A stretch of 64,000 bases of DNA from Lysobacterales bacterium (GTDB lineage: Bacteria > Pseudomonadota > Gammaproteobacteria > Xanthomonadales > SZUA-36). The number at the start of each line of letters is the position of its first letter. Within the stretch, counting starts at the first letter, position 1. The notes beneath the pieces are model-generated. The model ran no database searches, had not been told where the DNA came from, and saw nothing but the letters and a program-made list of their open reading frames with translations. Made by a program: the position numbers and the translations under genes. Positions 28,618-41,989 of the stretch are shown piece by piece. The DNA lies in assembly GCA_029935455.1 (NCBI GenBank), contig JAOZKI010000001.1:1-64000 (forward strand), written 5' to 3'.

Positions 28618-29558
28618 CCGCACATCTGCCCCGCATGGTGGCGCCCCGCATCGTCTATGCCGGCACGCCAGATTTTGCCGTTCCCGCCCTGCGTCGACTG
28701 TTGCACATGGGCGCTGAGGTCGTGGGCGTTTACAGCCAGCCCGACCGACCAGCCGGGCGCGGACGCAAGCTCACCGCCAGCCCGGTGAAGCGCGCTGCGC
28801 TCGAGCACGAACTGCCCGTCATGCAACCCACTGGTCTGCGTGACCCGGTCAGCCAGACTGAACTGGCTGACCTGCAACCGGACCTGATGGTGGTGGCTGC
28901 CTACGGACTGATCCTGCCCCCGGAGGTGCTCGCTACGCCAACCTTTGGCTGCTGGAACCTGCATGCCTCGCTGTTACCGCGTTGGCGGGGTGCGGCACCG
29001 ATCCAGCGCGCTATCGAGGCCGGCGATGAACATACGGGACTCTGCGTGATGCAGATGGAAGCCGGACTGGACACGGGGCCAGTACTGCATCGCTTAACGA
29101 CTGCCATCAGTGCCGACGATACGGCCGGCACCGTGCATGACCGGCTGGCCGAGCTTGGCGCTGATGCGTTGGCATACTGCCTCCGGCAGGCAGCTCAGGG
29201 TACGCTGCCTAAACCCGAGCGGCAGCATGAGCCGGACGCGCTTTACGCCCCCAAACTCACCAAGGCCGAAGCGGCACTGAACTGGCGCGAGCCCGCTGCC
29301 GTGCTGGAGCGCCGGATACGCGCGTTTAATCCCTGGCCGGTCGCCTGGTGCGAACTGCGAGGCAAGCGGCTGCGCGTTTGGCACGCGGAGGCTGATTCCA
29401 GCGCACATCAGGCACCACCGGGACAAGTGCTCGCCAGCGGGCCTGAGCGCATTACCATCGCCACCGGCGCGGGCTGTCTTCACCTACTGGAAGTTCAGCC
29501 AGAAGGACGACGGCGCATGTCGGTCAGTGACTACTTGAACGCGCAGCAAGGCTCGTGA
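28614..29558 (+). CDS. fmt: Methionyl-tRNA formyltransferase
   Basis: RIVYAGTPDFAVPALRRLLHMGAEVVGVYSQPDRPAGRGRKLTASPVKRAA..., CWNLHASLLPRWRGAAPIQRAIEAGD. Confidence 0.97.
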   Translation: MTAHLPRMVAPRIVYAGTPDFAVPALRRLLHMGAEVVGVYSQPDRPAGRGRKLTASPVKRAALEHELPVMQPTGLRDPVSQTELADLQPDLMVVAAYGLILPPEVLATPTFGCWNLHASLLPRWRGAAPIQRAIEAGDEHTGLCVMQMEAGLDTGPVLHRLTTAISADDTAGTVHDRLAELGADALAYCLRQAAQGTLPKPERQHEPDALYAPKLTKAEAALNWREPAAVLERRIRAFNPWPVAWCELRGKRLRVWHAEADSSAHQAPPGQVLASGPERITIATGAGCLHLLEVQPEGRRRMSVSDYLNAQQGS

Positions 29559-30859
29559 AAAAACCTGCTGACGCCCGAGTCGTTGCAATCAAGGCCCTGA
29601 GTGATGTGCTGGACCAGCAACGCTCGCTGGCAGAAACCACCGCCTTCGATGGCCTGAGCGAGGCCCGTGACCAGGGCTTCGCGCGTCATCTGAGCTATGG
29701 CGTGCTGCGCTGGTACAGCGCGCTGGACTGGCTGTCGCAAGCGCTACTGGAGCGGCCGCTGAAGCACAAGGATCGAGACGTCCATCGGCTGCTGTTGATC
29801 GGCCTATTTCAGGCCTGGAAGGACAGCACAGCCGCACACGCGGCGGTTCATGCCACTGCAGAAACGGCTCGCCGTCTGCGCAAACCCTGGGCCGTAGGCC
29901 TGTTGAACGCGGTGTTGCGGCGCTTCTTCCGGGAGCAGCATGCATTGCTATCCCAGCTAGCGACCCATCCTGCCGCCCGTGCTCACCCGGACTGGCTGTT
30001 AAGGCAACTGCAAGCAGACTGGCCGGAGCACTGGGCCTCGATCACAGCAGCGAATAACCGGCAGGCACCGCTGCAGCTGCGGGTCAACCTGAGCCGTACA
30101 AGCCGTGAAGAAGCCCTGCAGAAGCTGAACTCAGCAGGCATCAAGGCCACGGCCAGCGAGCTTTGCGCCAGCGGCATCGCCCTTGACTCAGCACTCCCGG
30201 TGGAGCAGTTACCTGGCTTCCAAGAGGGAATGTTTTCAGTGCAGGATTATGCTGCGCAACTGGCTGCCCCACTGCTGGATGCGCACAGCGGCCACCGGGT
30301 GCTGGATGCCTGCGCCGCGCCGGGCGGCAAGACCGGTCATCTTCTGGAGCGCACACCGGATATTGAATTGACCGCACTGGACCTGTCCGCGCAACGACTG
30401 AAGCGCGTTGGTGATAATCTCCAGCGCCTGGGGCTCAGGGCTGATCTGCGCGCAGCAGACGCGGCACAACCAGAGCAGTGGTGGGATGGCCAGCCCTTTG
30501 ACCGCATCTTACTGGACGCGCCCTGCAGCGCCACCGGCGTGATCCGCCGCCACCCGGAAATTAAGTGGTTGCGTGACCAGAGGCAGGTGGACACGCTGCT
30601 GCCAACGCAACAGCGTCTGTTGACCGCACTCTGGCCCCTGCTGCGGCCGGGCGGTATTCTTGTCTATGCCACCTGCTCGGTATTGAGGCGTGAAAACAAC
30701 CAGCAAATTCAGGCTTTTCTTGACACCCATCGCGATGCGCGCTGCCGTGCGGCGGACATTCCGGGGTTGCCTGCGGCGCCCGGGCAGCAACTCCTTCCGG
30801 GCGCTGTCGACAGCGATGGCTTTTACTACGCGATTCTGCACCGCTGCGCTGATTCTTAG
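29555..30859 (+). CDS. rsmB: 16S rRNA (cytosine(967)-C(5))-methyltransferase RsmB
   Basis: NusB-like N-domain and VLDACAAPGGKTGHLLE, LLDAPCSATGVIRRHPEIKWLR; GTG start overlapping fmt stop. Confidence 0.96.
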   Translation: MKKPADARVVAIKALSDVLDQQRSLAETTAFDGLSEARDQGFARHLSYGVLRWYSALDWLSQALLERPLKHKDRDVHRLLLIGLFQAWKDSTAAHAAVHATAETARRLRKPWAVGLLNAVLRRFFREQHALLSQLATHPAARAHPDWLLRQLQADWPEHWASITAANNRQAPLQLRVNLSRTSREEALQKLNSAGIKATASELCASGIALDSALPVEQLPGFQEGMFSVQDYAAQLAAPLLDAHSGHRVLDACAAPGGKTGHLLERTPDIELTALDLSAQRLKRVGDNLQRLGLRADLRAADAAQPEQWWDGQPFDRILLDAPCSATGVIRRHPEIKWLRDQRQVDTLLPTQQRLLTALWPLLRPGGILVYATCSVLRRENNQQIQAFLDTHRDARCRAADIPGLPAAPGQQLLPGAVDSDGFYYAILHRCADS

Positions 30860-31370
30860 CCTGCTCTTCGGCTGCCAAAGTCAGGCAGCCAGGGAGCGTT
30901 TCGTGTTGGAGGGGGCACGCGTGAACGCCGTGGGCAGCACCCTGAATGTGCAGCTACAGCAACAAATCAATTTTAGCCCAGCGGCCATTGAAGCCCTCTA
31001 CAATGGCGTGCCGCTGGTCATGCAGTGGGATCTGGAACTGCGGGACGCCGACAATTTGTCCCTGATAACCACCCGCGAGCGCCGGGCGACGCTGCGCTAT
31101 CTTCCGCTGAGTGAGCGCTTCCAGCTGGAACAAATGGACAACGGCGCAACCCAGAGCTACCCACGACTCCGGCATGCGCTGCGAGCCATGAACCAGCTAC
31201 AAATCATTATGGAGGGCATTCCCCTGACACCCGGCACCTATCAGATGCGCGCGCGAGTGCGCCTTGATCGAGCTGATCTGCCTGCGCCTATGCAACTGCC
31301 TGCGCTGGTGCTGATGCGCTGGCGACACGACTCTTTGTGGACCCAATGGCCGTTCCAAGTAAACGCCTGA
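30816..31370 (+). CDS. DUF4390 domain-containing protein (putative lipoprotein)
   Basis: MAFTTRFCTAALILSLLFGCQSQAARERFVLEGARVNAVGSTLNVQLQQQINFSPAAIEALYNGVPLVMQWDLEL; between rsmB and ntrY as in other gammaproteobacteria. Confidence 0.8.
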   Translation: MAFTTRFCTAALILSLLFGCQSQAARERFVLEGARVNAVGSTLNVQLQQQINFSPAAIEALYNGVPLVMQWDLELRDADNLSLITTRERRATLRYLPLSERFQLEQMDNGATQSYPRLRHALRAMNQLQIIMEGIPLTPGTYQMRARVRLDRADLPAPMQLPALVLMRWRHDSLWTQWPFQVNA

Positions 31371-33589
31371 AGCATATCCTCTTTCGAGTGATACCGATTC
31401 TGGCGGTGCTGCTGGTTCTGCTGGTCGCGCTCATCCTCGTCACCGACGTGCAACGCGGCGGCAGCGCCGCCAACCGGGGTTTTGTGGTGGTGGTAGCAGT
31501 AACACTACTGGCCACCGCCGTGCTGGTTATGGCCATTTTCTCCCGCGTAGCCTCGCTGCTGCGCAAGGTGCGCAATGAAGAGCCAGGCGCGCGGCTGGCG
31601 GCGCGCTGGGTGCGCAATTTCCTGGTTTTTTCCTTGCCTCCCGCGCTGATTGTCTACGTTTTCTCAGCATGGTTTCTGACCCAAACTATCGATAGCTGGT
31701 TTGATGTACGGGTTGAGAATGCACTGGCCGATTCACTGGCGCTGGGTCAGGAGTTTGTAGATCAACGCACCATGGAGGTACGCAACCAGTCACGTCGCGT
31801 GGCCGATCAGCTGGACGCGCAGGACAGTTCGGAGCAGCTCCGGCGTACCCTGCTGGCCAATATCCGTGCCAGCGGGCCAACGGAGCTAACCCTCTTTGAC
31901 CAGAGCGGTGCCACCATTAATACGGCCAGCAGCGATGTGACTGGCGCCTTGCCGGAACGACCGGGCGACTATGCCTGGCTGCAGGCCATGGAGCGTGGCG
32001 AGTATGCAGCGGCGGAACCTGCCGCCGACGGCCAACTCCGAGTCCGCGTGCTGCAAAAACTGCCTGGCCCCTCCTCAAACCAGAGCTTCCTGCTGCAGGC
32101 CATGTATCCCCTTCCGGGCGATGTGGCCGCCCTGACCGGCAACATCGAAGCAGAATACTATCGCTATCAGAACGTTGCCTATCTGCGTACCTCCCTGAAG
32201 CAGAGTTTTCTACTGATCCTCACGCTGGTCATGCTCCTGACCGTACAGCTGGCCATCCTGGCCGCCCTGAGCGCGGCGCGGCGCATGGTGACGCCATTGA
32301 GTTCGCTGGCCGCAGCCACCCAGCGCGTGGCCGGTGGGGAACTGGATCAGGCCGTGGAGCTACAGGGCCGCGATGAGATTGGCTTCCTGTCCGAAGCGTT
32401 CAATGACATGAGTAAAGCGCTGGTCGCCACCAGCGCGGCAGAAGCTGAGGGCAAGAGCCGCCTGCGGGCCCAGGGCATCTATCTGGAGACGGTACTCGGC
32501 AGTCTTTCTTCCGGCGTCATGACTCTGGACCGCTCCGGCCACATCGTTCGTGTCAATGCGGCCGCAGACCGAATTCTGCAAATCCAGGCCGACGCTCTGA
32601 CCGGCCAGTCGCTGGACCAATTGGGCGCGACACACAGGCACCTGCAGCCACTTGCAGATACCATCCGCCGGCACATTGAACGCACGCGGAAACAATGGCA
32701 GGAAGAGGTTCGCCTGGACGCGCAGAATCCCACCACGGTGCTACTGGTGCGCGGCTCCGATCTGTCCGGGCCCGCATCCCCTGAGAGCGGCTACGTGGTG
32801 GTTTTCGACGATGTAACCGTGCTCAACCAGGCGCAACGGGAAGCGGCCTGGTCCGAAGTAGCGCGGCGTCTCGCGCACGAGGTGAAAAACCCCCTGACAC
32901 CCATTCGCTTGGCGGCCGAACGCCTGCATATGAAGCTCGGCGAGAGACTGGTCGCGCAGGACGCGGAACTGCTGGAGCGTTCCACCAGCACTATCGTGGC
33001 TCAGGTGGAGGCCTTACGGCGTTTGGTAGATGCTTTTGGCGATTACGCGCAGGAGCCCAAGCTTGAACGCAGCACCCTGCGCCTGGATCGACTGATTGAG
33101 GAATTGGCCCACCTCTATGAGCAGGCAGACCCGCCACCGCTCATTCAACGGCAGCTCTGCCCTGGCCCGGAGGGACTCGTCGCCGATGAAGGGCGCTTGC
33201 GGCAGCTATTACATAACCTGCTGAGCAACGCTGTCGAAGCCAGCGCGCCCGAGCCGGCCACTATCCGCATGGCCAGCCAGATCGTTGGCGAGGGAGACAA
33301 CCGGGCGCTGGAATTAATCGTCAGTGATCATGGACCTGGCTATCCGGATGCGGTACTGGAGCGACCCTTTGAACCTTATGTGACCAGCAAACCCACGGGC
33401 AGCGGCCTGGGACTGGCCATCTGCCGCAAGATTATCAAGGAGCATGATGGCGATATCGTGATTAGCAACAGCCCCGAAGGCGGCGCTAGCACACGCATTA
33501 CCTTGCCACTGGATACGGCACCGCAGGCATCCGCCAGCGCCTTAGAAACGGCGTCCGGCACTGACGGCGGCGCAGCAGGCGGTTTCTAA
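31337..33589 (+). CDS. NtrY-like sensor histidine kinase (TM, HAMP, PAS, HisKA, HATPase)
   Basis: TM segments, HAMP-like PLSSLAAATQRVAGGELDQAVELQGRDEIGFLSEAFNDM, RRLAHEVKNPLTPIRLAAERL H-box, GSGLGLAICRKIIKEHDGDI. Confidence 0.92.
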   Translation: MDPMAVPSKRLKHILFRVIPILAVLLVLLVALILVTDVQRGGSAANRGFVVVVAVTLLATAVLVMAIFSRVASLLRKVRNEEPGARLAARWVRNFLVFSLPPALIVYVFSAWFLTQTIDSWFDVRVENALADSLALGQEFVDQRTMEVRNQSRRVADQLDAQDSSEQLRRTLLANIRASGPTELTLFDQSGATINTASSDVTGALPERPGDYAWLQAMERGEYAAAEPAADGQLRVRVLQKLPGPSSNQSFLLQAMYPLPGDVAALTGNIEAEYYRYQNVAYLRTSLKQSFLLILTLVMLLTVQLAILAALSAARRMVTPLSSLAAATQRVAGGELDQAVELQGRDEIGFLSEAFNDMSKALVATSAAEAEGKSRLRAQGIYLETVLGSLSSGVMTLDRSGHIVRVNAAADRILQIQADALTGQSLDQLGATHRHLQPLADTIRRHIERTRKQWQEEVRLDAQNPTTVLLVRGSDLSGPASPESGYVVVFDDVTVLNQAQREAAWSEVARRLAHEVKNPLTPIRLAAERLHMKLGERLVAQDAELLERSTSTIVAQVEALRRLVDAFGDYAQEPKLERSTLRLDRLIEELAHLYEQADPPPLIQRQLCPGPEGLVADEGRLRQLLHNLLSNAVEASAPEPATIRMASQIVGEGDNRALELIVSDHGPGYPDAVLERPFEPYVTSKPTGSGLGLAICRKIIKEHDGDIVISNSPEGGASTRITLPLDTAPQASASALETASGTDGGAAGGF

Positions 33590-33666
33590 TTGGGGTATAT
33601 TTCGCAGCAATCGCGCAGCTGCCGGCCACCTCGTGAGCCGATCGGGTTTGAGAGGGCCCAAGCACC

Positions 33667-35019
33667 ATGACTCAGGCCAGCATACTGGTCGTAGACGATG
33701 AGCAGGACATCCGCGCGCTCGTCTGCGAAATTCTCGAAGATGAAGGCTATCAGGTCCGCAGCGCCGAGGATGGCGAAAGCGCCCGGCAGGCCTTCAGCGC
33801 TCATGCGCCTGATCTCGTTCTGTTGGATATCTGGATGCCCGATATTGATGGCATCAGCCTGCTGAAAGAGTGGTCGGAAAGCGGCCGGCTAAACTGCCCG
33901 GTGGTCATGATTTCAGGTCATGGAACGTTGGAGACAGCCGTTGAGGCGACGCGACTCGGCGCCCATGACTTTGTGCAGAAACCCCTGTCACTGGCCAAAC
34001 TTCTGGCTACGGTCAAGCAGGCGCTGAACGCCGGCGCAACGTCGCAACAACAACCGGCAGCAATACGCGTGGCCCGGGCGCCGCTGGGTAACAGTTCCGA
34101 TATGCAACTGCTACGGCGGGCCGGCCAACAGGCTGCCGCCAGCAGCGGTGCGATTCTGATCAGCGGCGAGCACGGTACCGGCAAAGAAGCGCTGGCCGCC
34201 TGGCTTCACGAGCAGTCTGGTAACCGGGCCGGTTTTCACGTGCTTGACCGCACGCGACTGGCGGGCAATGACGCGGCAAACTACTTGCTCGGTGACGGCG
34301 AATCAGCGGGCGCTCTGGAAGCCGCCGGCACCGGGACGGTGTACCTGCCCGAGCTGCAGGATCTTACCGTCGACACGCAAAAGCTGCTGGCCGCGGTGCT
34401 GGAAGCCGGGCGCTTTACGTCAGTCGCTCACGGCAACCAGCCGCTGGCCTGTCGTTTGATCGCCGGTCTCTCCGGCACGCTTGAGCAAGCGGCGGAGGAT
34501 GCGCGGGTGATACCGACGCTAATGCTGCAGCTCGGTGGCTTGCCACTGCACCTTCCAGCGCTGCGGGATCGCCCCCAGGATATTCCCGAGCTGGCCAATC
34601 ACTATCTCGAACGTCTGTCAGCTGACGAGGGCATGAGTTACCGGCTCATCGCCACCGCTGCCCTGAACCGCATGCGCAATCATGACTGGCCGGGCAACGA
34701 ACGGGAACTTGAGAACCTCATGAAGCGTCTGCTGGTGCTGGGCGCCGAGGGCGAAATTTCTGTTGACGAAGTCGATGAGCTACTGCGCCAGGCTGGCAGT
34801 GAGGCCATTCCCGCTGGCGTCACCGTGCGCCCCAGCTCTTTTGATCTGCCCCTGCGCGAAGCGCGTGAAGCATTTGAGCGCGACTATCTGACCTACCAAC
34901 TGCGCAAAGCCGGCGGCAGTGTCGGCAAACTCTCGAGCGCCGTGGGCATGGAACGCACGCACTTGTACCGCAAGCTGCGGTCACTGGGCATTGATCCGAA
35001 AAAGGTAGGTGGAGGCTAG
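33667..35019 (+). CDS. NtrX-like response regulator with degenerate AAA+ domain and Fis-type HTH
   Basis: Receiver SILVVDDEQDIRALVCEILEDEGY...LVLLDIWMPDIDGI; Walker A GEHGTGKE; GAFTGA absent; C-terminal SVGKLSSAVGMERTHLYRKLRSLGI. Confidence 0.9.
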   Translation: MTQASILVVDDEQDIRALVCEILEDEGYQVRSAEDGESARQAFSAHAPDLVLLDIWMPDIDGISLLKEWSESGRLNCPVVMISGHGTLETAVEATRLGAHDFVQKPLSLAKLLATVKQALNAGATSQQQPAAIRVARAPLGNSSDMQLLRRAGQQAAASSGAILISGEHGTGKEALAAWLHEQSGNRAGFHVLDRTRLAGNDAANYLLGDGESAGALEAAGTGTVYLPELQDLTVDTQKLLAAVLEAGRFTSVAHGNQPLACRLIAGLSGTLEQAAEDARVIPTLMLQLGGLPLHLPALRDRPQDIPELANHYLERLSADEGMSYRLIATAALNRMRNHDWPGNERELENLMKRLLVLGAEGEISVDEVDELLRQAGSEAIPAGVTVRPSSFDLPLREAREAFERDYLTYQLRKAGGSVGKLSSAVGMERTHLYRKLRSLGIDPKKVGGG

Positions 35020-35021
35020 CG

Positions 35022-36398
35022 ATGAAGATCCTGATTCTTGGCGCTGGCCAGGTGGGCTCAACCGTGGCGCACAGCCTGTCCACGGAAGACAATGACATTA
35101 CCGTCGTTGATACGGATACCGTGCGCTTGAAGGCCCTGCAGGACACGCTGGATATTCGCGCCGTCAACGGCCACGCTTCGTACCCGAAGACCCTGATACG
35201 CGCCGGCATCGAGGATGCGGACCTGGCGATCGCTGTCACCAATTCCGACGAGGTCAACATGGCGGCTTGCCAGGTGGCCTATACGCTCTTTAATACGCCG
35301 ACGCGCGTGGCCCGGGTGCGCTCCGCCGCCTACACGGACTATCCGGAGCTGTTCGCCCGTGAACATTCTCCTATCGACGTGCTGATCAGCCCGGAACAGC
35401 TGATCACCCAGCACATTGCCGGCTTGATCAAAAACCCAGGGGCCCTGCAGGTACTGGATTTCGCCGATGGGCGGGTGCAACTGGTGGCGACTCGGGCCGA
35501 TGCGGGGGGACTGCTCGTCGGCCAGCAGCTGAAAACCCTGAAGGAACACCTGCCGGCGGGCGGTGATGCACGGGTGGCAGCCATCTACCGTCAGGGGCAA
35601 CTGGTGCAGCCGGACGGCAACACGGTCATCGAGGAAAATGACACGGTTTTCTTCCTCGCGGCGCGGCGCCACATCGAAGCCATGATGAAGGAGCTGCGAC
35701 CACTGGACGGCCCCATCCGGCGCATTGTGCTCGCCGGCGGCGGGCACATCGGCGGCAGCCTGGCCAGGCAACTGGAACGGGACCATCACGTGAAGGTGAT
35801 CGAACGCGATCCGGCGCGGGCCGAGGCCATTGCCGAGGAACTGGAGACCGCCATTGTGCTGGTGGGCGACTGTGCGGATGAAAACCTGTTGCGCGAGGAA
35901 GCCATCGAAACCACCGATGTCTACTGCGTCCTCACCAACGACGACGAAGCCAATATCCTCTCTTCCATGCTGGCTAAACGGCTGGGCGCCGGGAAGGTAC
36001 TGGCCATTATCAACCGCGCCTCCTATGTCGACCTGGTCGAATCCAGCGTGATTGATATCGCCGTGTCACCACAGCAAATCACCATTGGCGACGTACTCAC
36101 GCACATCCGGCGTGGCAATATTGTGCGCGTGCACTCACTTCGGCGGGGCGCCGCCGAAGCCATCGAGGCCATCGCCCTGGGCGACAAACACTCCTCGCGC
36201 GTGGTAGGGCGCGCGGTGGAAGATCTAAGCCTGCCAGCAGGCGCGACCATTGGTGCCATCGTGCGTGGGGAGGAAGTGATCATCGCGCATCACGACACCA
36301 TGATTCAGGAGTTTGACCATGTCATTCTGTTTGTGCCGGACAAGCGCCAAATTCCCGTCATCGAGTCCCTGTTCCAGGTCAGCGCAACTTTTGTTTGA
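35022..36398 (+). CDS. trkA: Trk system potassium transporter TrkA
   Basis: MKILILGAGQVGSTVAHSLSTEDNDITVVDTD...; duplicated Rossmann/TrkA-C, IVLAGGGHIGGSLARQLERDHHVKVIERD. Confidence 0.96.
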   Translation: MKILILGAGQVGSTVAHSLSTEDNDITVVDTDTVRLKALQDTLDIRAVNGHASYPKTLIRAGIEDADLAIAVTNSDEVNMAACQVAYTLFNTPTRVARVRSAAYTDYPELFAREHSPIDVLISPEQLITQHIAGLIKNPGALQVLDFADGRVQLVATRADAGGLLVGQQLKTLKEHLPAGGDARVAAIYRQGQLVQPDGNTVIEENDTVFFLAARRHIEAMMKELRPLDGPIRRIVLAGGGHIGGSLARQLERDHHVKVIERDPARAEAIAEELETAIVLVGDCADENLLREEAIETTDVYCVLTNDDEANILSSMLAKRLGAGKVLAIINRASYVDLVESSVIDIAVSPQQITIGDVLTHIRRGNIVRVHSLRRGAAEAIEAIALGDKHSSRVVGRAVEDLSLPAGATIGAIVRGEEVIIAHHDTMIQEFDHVILFVPDKRQIPVIESLFQVSATFV

Positions 36399-36442: not shown

Positions 36443-37894
36443 GTGAAGCTGGCCTCTGTACAGCGGGTGGTCGGCGCTCTGGTCGCCTGGTCCAGTCTCA
36501 TGATGTTGCCACCGGCGCTGGTCAGCTGGCTTTACGACGACGGTGTCACCAGCCTGTTCGGGCTGAGCGCCGCGGTACTGGTGCTTTTGGGCGGGCTGAT
36601 TTACCTGCCCGTGCGACATGCCTCACGAGATCTGCGCCTGCGCGACGGTTTCCTGATCGTGGTGGCCTGCTGGCTGTCCCTGGCGTTGGTCGGCGCTATC
36701 CCTTTTCTGCTTCTGGAAGATCCTTCCCTGTCCTACGTGGATGCATTTTTTGAATCCATGTCAGGACTGACAACCACGGGCGCCACCATCATCACCCGTA
36801 TTGACGATCTGCCACGCGGCATTCTGTTCTACCGGCAGCAGCTGCAGTGGCTGGGCGGCATGGGCATTATTGTGCTTGCGGTCGCGATTTTGCCCATGTT
36901 GCGAGTTGGCGGCATGCAGCTCTATCGGGCCGAAACCCCGGGGCCGTTGAAGGACACCAAACTCACGCCACGCATAACGGAAACAGCCAAAGCGCTGTGG
37001 CTGATTTACCTGGGCATCACGATTACCTGCGCCCTGTGCTACTGGCTGGGTGGCATGCGCATGTTTGATGCCATTGGCCACGCTTTCTCCACCGTCGCTA
37101 TTGGGGGTTTCTCGACCCACGACCAGAGCTTTGCTTTCTATAACAACCCCACGCTGGAAATGATCGCGGTGGTGTTCATGTTACTGGCCGGCATGAACTT
37201 TGCGCTGCACTTTTCAGCCTGGCGCAAGGCCAGCGCCCAGCCGTACTTCAGCGATCCGGAACTGCGCGCCTACGGCCTACTGGCGGCCGTTTTTGCCCTG
37301 CTGGCGACCCTGGTGCTGGTGCTGGACAGCGTCTATGACAACAGTTTTTCTGCTGCCCGTTTCGCCCTCTTTCAGGTGGTCTCCGCCCTTACTACCACCG
37401 GCTTTACCAGCACGGAATTTTCCAGCTGGCCAGCGCCCTTACCGCTGCTGCTCATCGCGCTGGCATTTATCGGCGGTTGCGCCGGCAGTACCGCTGGCGG
37501 CATAAAGGTCATTCGCGTCATGCTGCTGTTCCGCCACGCCATGCGCGAGATTCGACGGCTCGTTCACCCGCACGCGGTGCTACCGGTAAAGTTTGGCGGC
37601 CAAAAGGCCGCACCCTCCGTCCTGGAAGCGGTTATGGGCTTTTTCTTCTTGTTTATCGCCAGCACGATACTCATGACCTTGCTCCTGCACGCCACGGGAC
37701 TGGACCTGCTGACGGCATTTTCCGCCGTGGCCGCCTGTATCACCAATCTTGGCCCGGGACTGGGCGAAGTCAGCAGCAACTATGCGGTTTTGAATGACAG
37801 CGCCAAGCTGGTGCTGAGCATGGCCATGCTGGCCGGTCGTCTGGAAATCTATACGCTGCTGGTGTTGCTCACACCCACTTTCTGGAAGGACTAG
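36443..37894 (+). CDS. trkH: TrkH family potassium uptake protein
   Basis: Polytopic; FESMSGLTTTGATIITRID, SALTTTGFTSTEFSSWP, GGCAGSTAGGIKVIRVMLLFRHAMREI. Confidence 0.95.
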   Translation: MKLASVQRVVGALVAWSSLMMLPPALVSWLYDDGVTSLFGLSAAVLVLLGGLIYLPVRHASRDLRLRDGFLIVVACWLSLALVGAIPFLLLEDPSLSYVDAFFESMSGLTTTGATIITRIDDLPRGILFYRQQLQWLGGMGIIVLAVAILPMLRVGGMQLYRAETPGPLKDTKLTPRITETAKALWLIYLGITITCALCYWLGGMRMFDAIGHAFSTVAIGGFSTHDQSFAFYNNPTLEMIAVVFMLLAGMNFALHFSAWRKASAQPYFSDPELRAYGLLAAVFALLATLVLVLDSVYDNSFSAARFALFQVVSALTTTGFTSTEFSSWPAPLPLLLIALAFIGGCAGSTAGGIKVIRVMLLFRHAMREIRRLVHPHAVLPVKFGGQKAAPSVLEAVMGFFFLFIASTILMTLLLHATGLDLLTAFSAVAACITNLGPGLGEVSSNYAVLNDSAKLVLSMAMLAGRLEIYTLLVLLTPTFWKD

Positions 37895-40600: not shown

Positions 40601-41989
40601 CTAGCCTTCGAGCTCCTTGAGCTTACGGGTCAACGTGTTGCGCCCCACGCCCAACAAGCGGGCGGCCTCGATGCGTTTGCCGCCCGTATGCTCCAGCGCC
40701 ACCTCAAACAGCACCTGCTCCATGGCATCACGGGCCGCGGGCAAGAGATCAGGCGAACCGTTACGCACCGCTGCACCGGCCCAGTCACGCAGAGCGCTGC
40801 GCCAGTCGCCGGACGCCACGCCATCAGCCAGTTCATCAGATTCTTCAGGCGGCAGGTCTTCCGGGAAGATTTGCTCCCCAGGTGCCATCACGCACAGCTG
40901 GCGACACAGATTTTGCAGCTGACGAACGTTACCGGGCCAGCGCCGGGTGCGCAGGGCCCGCACCGTTTCCGGCCGCAGATGTTTACGTTCCAGACCCATT
41001 TCTCGTGCTGACTGGTTCAGAAAGTACCGCGCCAAAGGCTCGATATCATCCAGCCGTTCGCGCAGGGGCGGCAATTCCAGATTGATCACATTCAGGCGGT
41101 GGTAGAGGTCTTCCCGAAAGGTACCTGCGGCAATGTGCTTGTCCAGCTCCTGATGGGTCGCAGCAATAATGCGCACATCAGCCTGTAACAGATCGCGCCC
41201 ACCTACGCGGTAGTAATCGCCCTCAGCCAGCACACGCAAGAGCCGCGTTTGCAGCGGTAGCGGCATATCGCCAATTTCATCCAGAAACAGCGTGCCGCCG
41301 GCCGCTTCTTCAAAACGCCCGGCACGTTTACTGTGCGCCCCGGTAAAAGCGCCACGCTCGTGACCGAAGAGCTCAGATTCCAGCAGTTCATTGGGAATAG
41401 CGGCCGTGTTGATGGCCACGAAAGGACCATTGGCGCGCGGACTGTGGTCATGCAGGGCCCGGGCCACCACTTCCTTACCAGCACCGGTCTCGCCCGTGAT
41501 CAGTACGCTGATGGTAGATTTCGACAGGCGGCCGATGGTGCGAAAGATCTCCTGCATGGCGGCCGACTCACCAATCATCTGGTTCTCATCTGGCAGCCGC
41601 TCTACGGCTGCCGGCGCCTGCCGATCAGCCACCGCACTGGCCACCACCGACAAGACCTGCTCCAGATCGAAAGGCTTGGGCAGGTAGTCAAAGACCCCCT
41701 GCTGGAAGGCACTGACGGCCTGATCCAGATCCGAGAAACCGGTCATGGCGATCACGGGAATATTGCGCTGCTCCTCGCGCAGTGTATCCAGCACGGACAG
41801 GCCGTCAGCGTCTGGCAGGCGAATATCGGTCAGAATCACATCGGGCGAGTCCTCTGCCAGCGCCTCATGCAGCGCGCCGACGCTGGCATAGCTGGCGACC
41901 GCGTAGCCGGCTTTCGACAGCGCCCGCTCGAGCACGAAGCGAATGGAATCATCATCATCCGTGATCCAGGCCCGCGCTTGCTGAGTCAT
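40601..41989 (-). CDS. ntrC: Nitrogen regulation response regulator NtrC (GlnG)
   Basis: Receiver, [82 protein letters not shown]. Confidence 0.96.

Follow-up and report, generated by a model that had tools for sequence, protein, structure and literature searches.

In a Lysobacterales genome, a response regulator of the NtrX family carries an AAA+ domain that lacks GAFTGA, the Walker B Asp, sensor I and both arginine fingers, and a conserved palindrome, TGTTGY-N6-RCAACA, co-occurs with this regulator in related genomes at the promoters of ntrX and lpxC. We consider it likely that the ATPase-dead NtrX, once phosphorylated by NtrY, binds this predicted palindrome and regulates sigma-70-type promoters, that of lpxC included, with neither sigma-54 nor ATP hydrolysis. 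Coordinates given without a locus or contig name refer to the window, i.e. the whole stretch of 64,000 nucleotides that was analysed (Table 1).

Gene cluster and domain architecture

The ntrX reading frame (33667-35019, plus strand) is real and intact, opens with ATG and encodes 450 amino acids. Its product belongs to the NtrX family, with a receiver, an AAA+ and a Fis-type HTH domain and orthology to NtrX; it shares 44–88% identity with the best 80 loci found, and its best PDB match, both by sequence and by fold, is Brucella NtrX. D10, D11, D54 and K105 are unchanged in 55 of 55 orthologues (alignment A1). Pfam Sigma54_activat scores it weakly, at 60 bits versus 237 bits for the NtrC of the same window. 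On the NCBIfam model NF051870 it reaches 340 bits, under the cut-off of 600; when 80 genomes from across the phylum were sampled, no more than 20 attained that value. The model was dropped as an NtrX marker: the window's NtrC scores higher on it, and because it fails to separate gammaproteobacterial NtrX from NtrC, NtrX loci were located via DUF4390 instead.

Directly upstream of ntrX lies a kinase gene with NtrY_N, HAMP, PAS, HisKA and HATPase_c domains, itself preceded by DUF4390 and rsmB genes. The protein is thus the PlrR-type regulator of an rsmB-DUF4390-ntrY-ntrX-trkA-trkH cluster, an arrangement shared with Bordetella PlrR and betaproteobacterial NtrX (rsmB-plrP(DUF4390)-plrS-plrR-trkA-trkH; PMC13001219). 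In Bordetella, too, the 3' end of the kinase gene harbours a promoter for the regulator gene, whereas betaproteobacterial NtrX lacks the AAA+ domain that persists here in degenerate form (PMC13001219). The Bordetella DUF4390 protein acts as a third component that modulates the kinase/phosphatase balance, a genetic result obtained in Bordetella only, and PlrP is described there as periplasmic (PMC13001219). The DUF4390 protein of the window likely starts near 30816 with a signal-peptide-like MAFTTRFCTAALILSLLFGC; the segment encoded at 30816-30890, MAFTTRFCTAALILSLLFGCQSQA, resembles a lipoprotein signal with Cys.

Table 1 Features of the ntrX locus and of the ntrC control in the window.
Feature	Position	Strand	Basis
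rsmB-like 16S rRNA methyltransferase, first gene of conserved cluster	29555-30859	+	Reading; gene order as in PMC13001219
DUF4390 (PlrP-like) protein	30690-31370	+	Pfam PF14334, 90 bits; PMC13001219
ntrY-like histidine kinase (HAMP, PAS, HisKA with His514, HATPase_c)	31337-33589	+	Pfam; cognate kinase by position
ntrY-ntrX intergenic promoter region	33590-33666	+	Sequence and family comparison
Response regulator of NtrX type (450 aa): REC, degenerate AAA+, Fis-type HTH	33667-35019	+	ORF, Pfam, model
Receiver domain, residues 1-122	33667-34032	+	Pfam Response_reg, 107.8 bits
Phosphorylation site Asp54	33826-33828	+	Invariant in orthologues
AAA+ core (residues 139-300), catalytic motifs degenerate; lowest conservation among the folded parts	34081-34566	+	Alignments, dN/dS
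Walker A GEHGTGKE, Lys173 kept (Arg or others in many relatives)	34165-34188	+	Alignments
Shortened L1 segment NYLLGDGESAG, GAFTGA absent	34279-34311	+	Alignments
Walker B remnant VYLPE, Asp replaced by Pro228, Glu229 kept	34339-34353	+	Alignments
Sensor I region CRLIAGLSG, Thr replaced by Leu268	34450-34476	+	Alignments
Arginine-finger region RVIPTLMLQLGG, Ile282 and Gln288 in place of the two Arg	34504-34539	+	Alignments
AAA+ lid, residues 301-380	34567-34806	+	Pfam AAA_lid_14, 69.7 bits
Sensor II WPGNEREL, Arg346 kept	34687-34710	+	Alignments
Fis-type HTH	34843-34992	+	Pfam, alignments
HTH recognition segment GMERTHLYRKL	34945-34977	+	Alignments
trkA, start 2 bp past ntrX end	35022-36398	+	Pfam TrkA_N, TrkA_C
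trkH-like	36443-37894	+	Reading; gene order as in PMC13001219
Canonical ntrC with GAFTGA, internal control	40601-41989	-	Pfam Sigma54_activat, 237 bits; TIGR01818, 644 bits

Loss of catalytic motifs and its spread

The motifs were read from an alignment of NtrX with the window's NtrC and 98 orthologues. A sequence-only reading had described GAFTGA as absent from a shortened L1 loop, the Walker B Asp as replaced and the arginine finger as unrecognisable, with Walker A, the receiver and the Fis-type HTH intact, and each of these points is confirmed, the receiver and the HTH by Pfam as well (Table 1). The L1 segment comprises 10 residues versus 19 in NtrC. GAFTGA occurs neither there nor anywhere else in the protein, and a relocated GAFTGA loop, for which that reading had proposed an orthologue alignment, did not appear in the alignments. 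Beyond the earlier description, sensor I is lost as well (Leu268), while the sensor II Arg346 is retained. NtrX therefore lacks the features expected of a sigma-54 activator, namely GAFTGA in L1, an intact Walker B DE, sensor I and the arginine fingers (P228, L268, I282, Q288), and its residues suggest that ATPase activity is absent.

Selective constraint in NtrX is the reverse of that in NtrC: the AAA+ core evolves fast in the former, but more slowly than any other part in the latter. Between the window and its sister genome, dN/dS in NtrX is 0.044 for the receiver, 0.131 for the AAA core, 0.044 for the lid and 0.025 for the HTH, whereas the AAA core of NtrC, in the identical genome pair, yields 0.004. 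NtrX pairs of 60–67% overall identity share ~50% in the AAA core, 77–88% in the receiver and 90–96% in the HTH; in NtrC pairs of 65–73% overall identity the AAA core (84–86%) ranks above both receiver and HTH. Two NtrC control pairs (L273 and L274; 26–34% identity) were set aside as wrong reading frames or paralogues. Column entropy in NtrX follows the same pattern (receiver 0.88, AAA core 1.75, HTH 0.90). Selection thus acts on the receiver and on DNA binding, with the middle of the protein relaxed, although not free of constraint. With Asp54 invariant across the 55 orthologues and the HTH highly conserved, the earlier proposal of a phosphorylation-controlled DNA-binding regulator emerges as the best-supported reading.

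The gene is under purifying selection. Decay towards a pseudogene, to which the faster evolution of the AAA core and an in-frame stop in one family genome (G008) might point, is extremely improbable: dN/dS lies far under 1 in every folded domain, receiver and HTH are the most conserved parts, the structural model is confident, and the operator described below is conserved together with the gene. The interrupted ntrX (L012, G008:C86:584-1924) contains an in-frame TGA that is either an assembly error or a true disruption. The AlphaFold2 model of the window's NtrX has a mean pLDDT of 87.8 and a well-defined AAA+ domain, but the domain arrangement is uncertain because pTM is only 0.59. Its nearest folds are crystal structures of Brucella NtrX, of which two contain ATP or ADP.

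The combined loss is common to the whole genus of the window's NtrX, and most of it to the family, and therefore is not special to this protein; the sequence-only reading had singled it out as notable, and the loss is real but less distinctive than supposed. Neither the Walker B Asp nor the finger-1 Arg is kept in any of 23 family sequences, sensor I lacks Thr or Ser in 22/23, the Walker A Lys is replaced by Arg in 13/23, and the sensor II Arg persists in all 23. GAFTGA is missing from every gammaproteobacterial NtrX aligned and from 19 alphaproteobacterial NtrX, the latter retaining 7/7 of the other catalytic features scored. Its absence in alphaproteobacterial NtrX had already been published for Caulobacter (PMC10274813), in line with the earlier reading's remark that such a loss had been discussed. 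FastTree trees of 218 sequences imply 19–21 changes within the class for the Walker B Asp, 10–13 for finger 1 and 11–13 for the Walker A Lys; these counts include AAA-less rows and do not by themselves give direction, but the NtrC and alphaproteobacterial rows are intact. In L151, L186, L201 and L243 the AAA+ domain is ~30 residues shorter with weaker profile scores, in two DUF4390-linked NtrX of one other family (L164, L261) it is missing, and it is likewise absent from betaproteobacterial NtrX (PMC13001219). Given such piecemeal losses up to deletion of the whole domain, the window's NtrX sits on a graded series, and its degenerate AAA+ domain by itself extends a trend that was already known.

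The retained Lys173 and Arg346, which are kept throughout the window's genus, raise a tentative alternative: NtrX might be gated by phosphorylation and by nucleotide, with ATP binding without hydrolysis setting its oligomeric state or DNA affinity in this genus, as reported for Rhodobacter capsulatus NtrC. The well-folded AAA+ domain of the model would agree with such gating, as would the crystallisation of Brucella NtrX, the nearest protein of solved structure, with either ATP or ADP. Set against it are the Arg at the Walker A Lys in 13 of the 23 family sequences, the other substitutions elsewhere, and the fact that the window's NtrX has lost sensor I and the two fingers as well as the Walker B Asp. 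Because many relatives carry Arg, Leu, Ile, Met or Gln at the position of Lys173, nucleotide binding is unlikely as a general function; the earlier suggestion that ATP is bound but not hydrolysed is plausible for the window's genus. Brucella NtrX reportedly lacks ATPase activity. The Brucella abortus protein (PDB 5m7n/5m7o/5m7p; Fernandez et al. 2017) resembles the window's NtrX in its REC-AAA+-HTH layout, its lack of GAFTGA and its type of kinase partner, but in our alignment its Walker B DE, sensor I and the pair of arginine fingers are intact, and its gene cluster is ntrBC-linked, with no DUF4390. Action on sigma-70 promoters, controlled by phosphorylation, is reported for GAFTGA-less regulators of Rhodobacter capsulatus and Caulobacter, which supports the same mode of action for NtrX. 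Those regulators are NtrC rather than NtrX, and the accessible part of PMC10274813 mentions no loss of the Walker B Asp or arginine fingers for them.

A conserved palindrome at ntrX and lpxC

The palindrome TGTTGY-N6-RCAACA occurs with fixed spacing in the ntrY-ntrX gap of the family. Of 31 family sequences, 29 carry it with ≤1 mismatch and ≤200 bp upstream of ntrX, and up to 5 kb upstream of the gene yielded no further sites; the reversed pattern, searched near ntrX in the same 31 sequences as a control, gave zero matches. In most of the family the palindrome there spans the last part of the -10 element together with the start. In the window itself the ntrX operator has diverged (best match 5 mismatches, 33603-33620) next to a -10-like TATATT at 33596-33601, and the sister genome (L002) likewise keeps TATATT with no recognisable ntrX operator. 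The flanking promoter region (33590-33640) is near-identical between the two genomes despite the operator divergence in both.

lpxC controls how much lipopolysaccharide a cell makes. Searching 200 bp before lpxC with ≤1 mismatch, we found the operator in 22 of 23 family genomes, in 11 of 30 other NtrX-bearing genomes (ten of the 11 in families of the window's order) and in none of 28 NtrX-less genomes, three of which belong to the same order (family f2). These counts are not independent trials, since the genomes within each set are related; the shuffled expectation was 0.03–0.06 per set, and the reversed pattern appeared once in each NtrX-bearing set and never in the NtrX-less set. NtrX-bearing genomes were picked by a DUF4390 or NtrX match, and absence in the 28 was checked by search, which gave no match or best identities of 25–37%.

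Genome-wide, 25 family genomes contain 94 perfect sites versus 25 for the reversed pattern. Three of the sites (none for the reversed pattern) are found in the window's genome: at lpxC, at the start of pgi and before a secreted-protein gene (L342:2650-3585). The latter encodes 311 aa with a signal peptide and a C-terminal PQIPTL...TM...RGRS tail, for which Pfam and NCBIfam give no match; its operator recurs in L326, L334, L349 and L356 with the same geometry, ~56–58 bp from the -10. In many family genomes the palindrome lies within the first codons of pgi (L341:2520-2537), encoding roughly L-(H/Q)-K-(Y/C)-N, and we regard this site as weak support because coding constraint in or next to the first codons could partly explain its conservation. 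An initial assignment of this ~540-aa gene as lnt was rejected, Pfam and NCBIfam both identifying it as pgi. The published R. sphaeroides motif GCA-N9-TGC gave no signal upstream of ntrX (10 of 225 loci vs 9.7 in shuffles). In L261, AGTTGCCAATTGACAACA lies 28 bp upstream of the AAA-less ntrX with one mismatch to the operator, a single case that may be chance.

NtrX proteins outside the window's order keep the HTH, yet the site is mostly missing at their lpxC and ntrX. As the link of NtrX to the palindrome comes from sequence comparison, the near-identical recognition helix in these other orders could indicate that another transcription factor, co-inherited with NtrX, uses the site and that NtrX has different targets. 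We regard this as unlikely: the palindrome lies within the ntrX promoter itself in 29 of the 31 family sequences, the lpxC site is missing in all 28 NtrX-less genomes, including those of the same order, and the NtrYX-lpxC link is experimental in alphaproteobacteria. NtrX itself is thus the probable ligand of the candidate operator.

In the 25 lpxC promoters where both elements were recognised, the operator ends 48–52 bp before a sigma-70-type -10 hexamer; assuming a transcription start ~7 bp past the -10, it would be centred near -72. Conservation of a sigma-54-type element was not seen at lpxC promoters (best matches with 2–7 mismatches or the core absent), the lowest mismatch counts, 2 and 3, being those of the window's genome and its sister. 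Neither lpxC nor ntrX, as candidate targets, shows conserved -24/-12 elements, and sigma-70-type -10 sequences are found instead; this promoter anatomy, relevant only if these are true targets, fits sigma-70 regulation. It also bears on the possibility that NtrX has remained an activator of sigma-54 promoters, acting either by itself or in oligomers that include an intact activator, for instance NtrC. The window's genome does encode RpoN, as do 39 of 41 genomes searched, along with intact activators. Such activation is nevertheless highly improbable with GAFTGA, the arginine fingers and the Walker B Asp missing and no -24/-12 element conserved at the candidate promoters. In addition, a 99%-complete genome of the order (G031) retains an NtrX of 42% identity with heavily degenerate AAA+ motifs (L268, C8:43166-44520) but gives no match to rpoN (PF04552). 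The earlier claim that the protein should not act as a sigma-54 activator thus gains support from the clade-wide absence of GAFTGA, the candidate promoters and this genome.

Proposed regulation of lpxC and its implications

In the mechanism that we favour, NtrY would phosphorylate Asp54 of NtrX, and phospho-NtrX, probably as a dimer, would bind TGTTGY-N6-RCAACA via its Fis-type HTH and regulate ordinary sigma-70-type promoters, with no need for ATP hydrolysis or sigma-54. The AAA+ domain would be a folded remnant that acts as a spacer or dimer scaffold. At the ntrX promoter of most of the family, a site that reaches from the end of the -10 into the start has the geometry of autorepression; S. 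meliloti NtrX sites over start points have been linked to repression (PMC9223101). At lpxC, a site near -72, 48–52 bp upstream of an extended -10, has the geometry of a class I (upstream) activator and would predict activation. Confidence is lowest for the sign at lpxC, since NtrYX lowers the transcript of this gene in two alphaproteobacteria, R. sphaeroides and Caulobacter (PMC12444477, PMC7240162). Rhodobacter sphaeroides NtrYX controls envelope genes, and lpxC rises 8.8-fold in its absence; this NtrYX-dependent effect was called indirect because no NtrX site was found at lpxC (PMC7240162), whereas in the window's order a conserved candidate site lies directly upstream. The published alphaproteobacterial sites (CAA-N2-5-TTG, GCA-N9-TGC) are different motifs and count against the model, as do the missing operator at the ntrX promoters of the window and its sister and the scarcity of the site at lpxC and ntrX in NtrX-bearing genomes outside the order. 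According to the accessible part of a 2025 review, two-component systems control the transcription of lpxC in alphaproteobacteria; for gammaproteobacteria, we found no description of this operator or of its tie to lpxC in the literature searched.

Taken further, and with somewhat less confidence, the data suggest that in this order an ATPase-dead NtrX directly controls lpxC, and hence lipid A output, from a fixed predicted site near -72 of a sigma-70-type promoter, so that transcriptional control of LpxC would be run by NtrYX and a periplasmic DUF4390 partner, and that the NtrX family records a stepwise removal of the AAA+ machinery, first GAFTGA, then the catalytic residues and finally the whole domain. 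NtrX proteins lacking GAFTGA were already known; their gammaproteobacterial regulon and the use of a dead AAA+ domain become directly testable through a conserved operator tied to the presence of NtrX. Because the losses are graded among orthologues, some with all catalytic motifs intact and others with no AAA+ domain left, they offer a natural series for the role of a non-hydrolysing AAA+ domain, and through the lpxC site, if true, lipid A synthesis would be open to direct control at the level of transcription.
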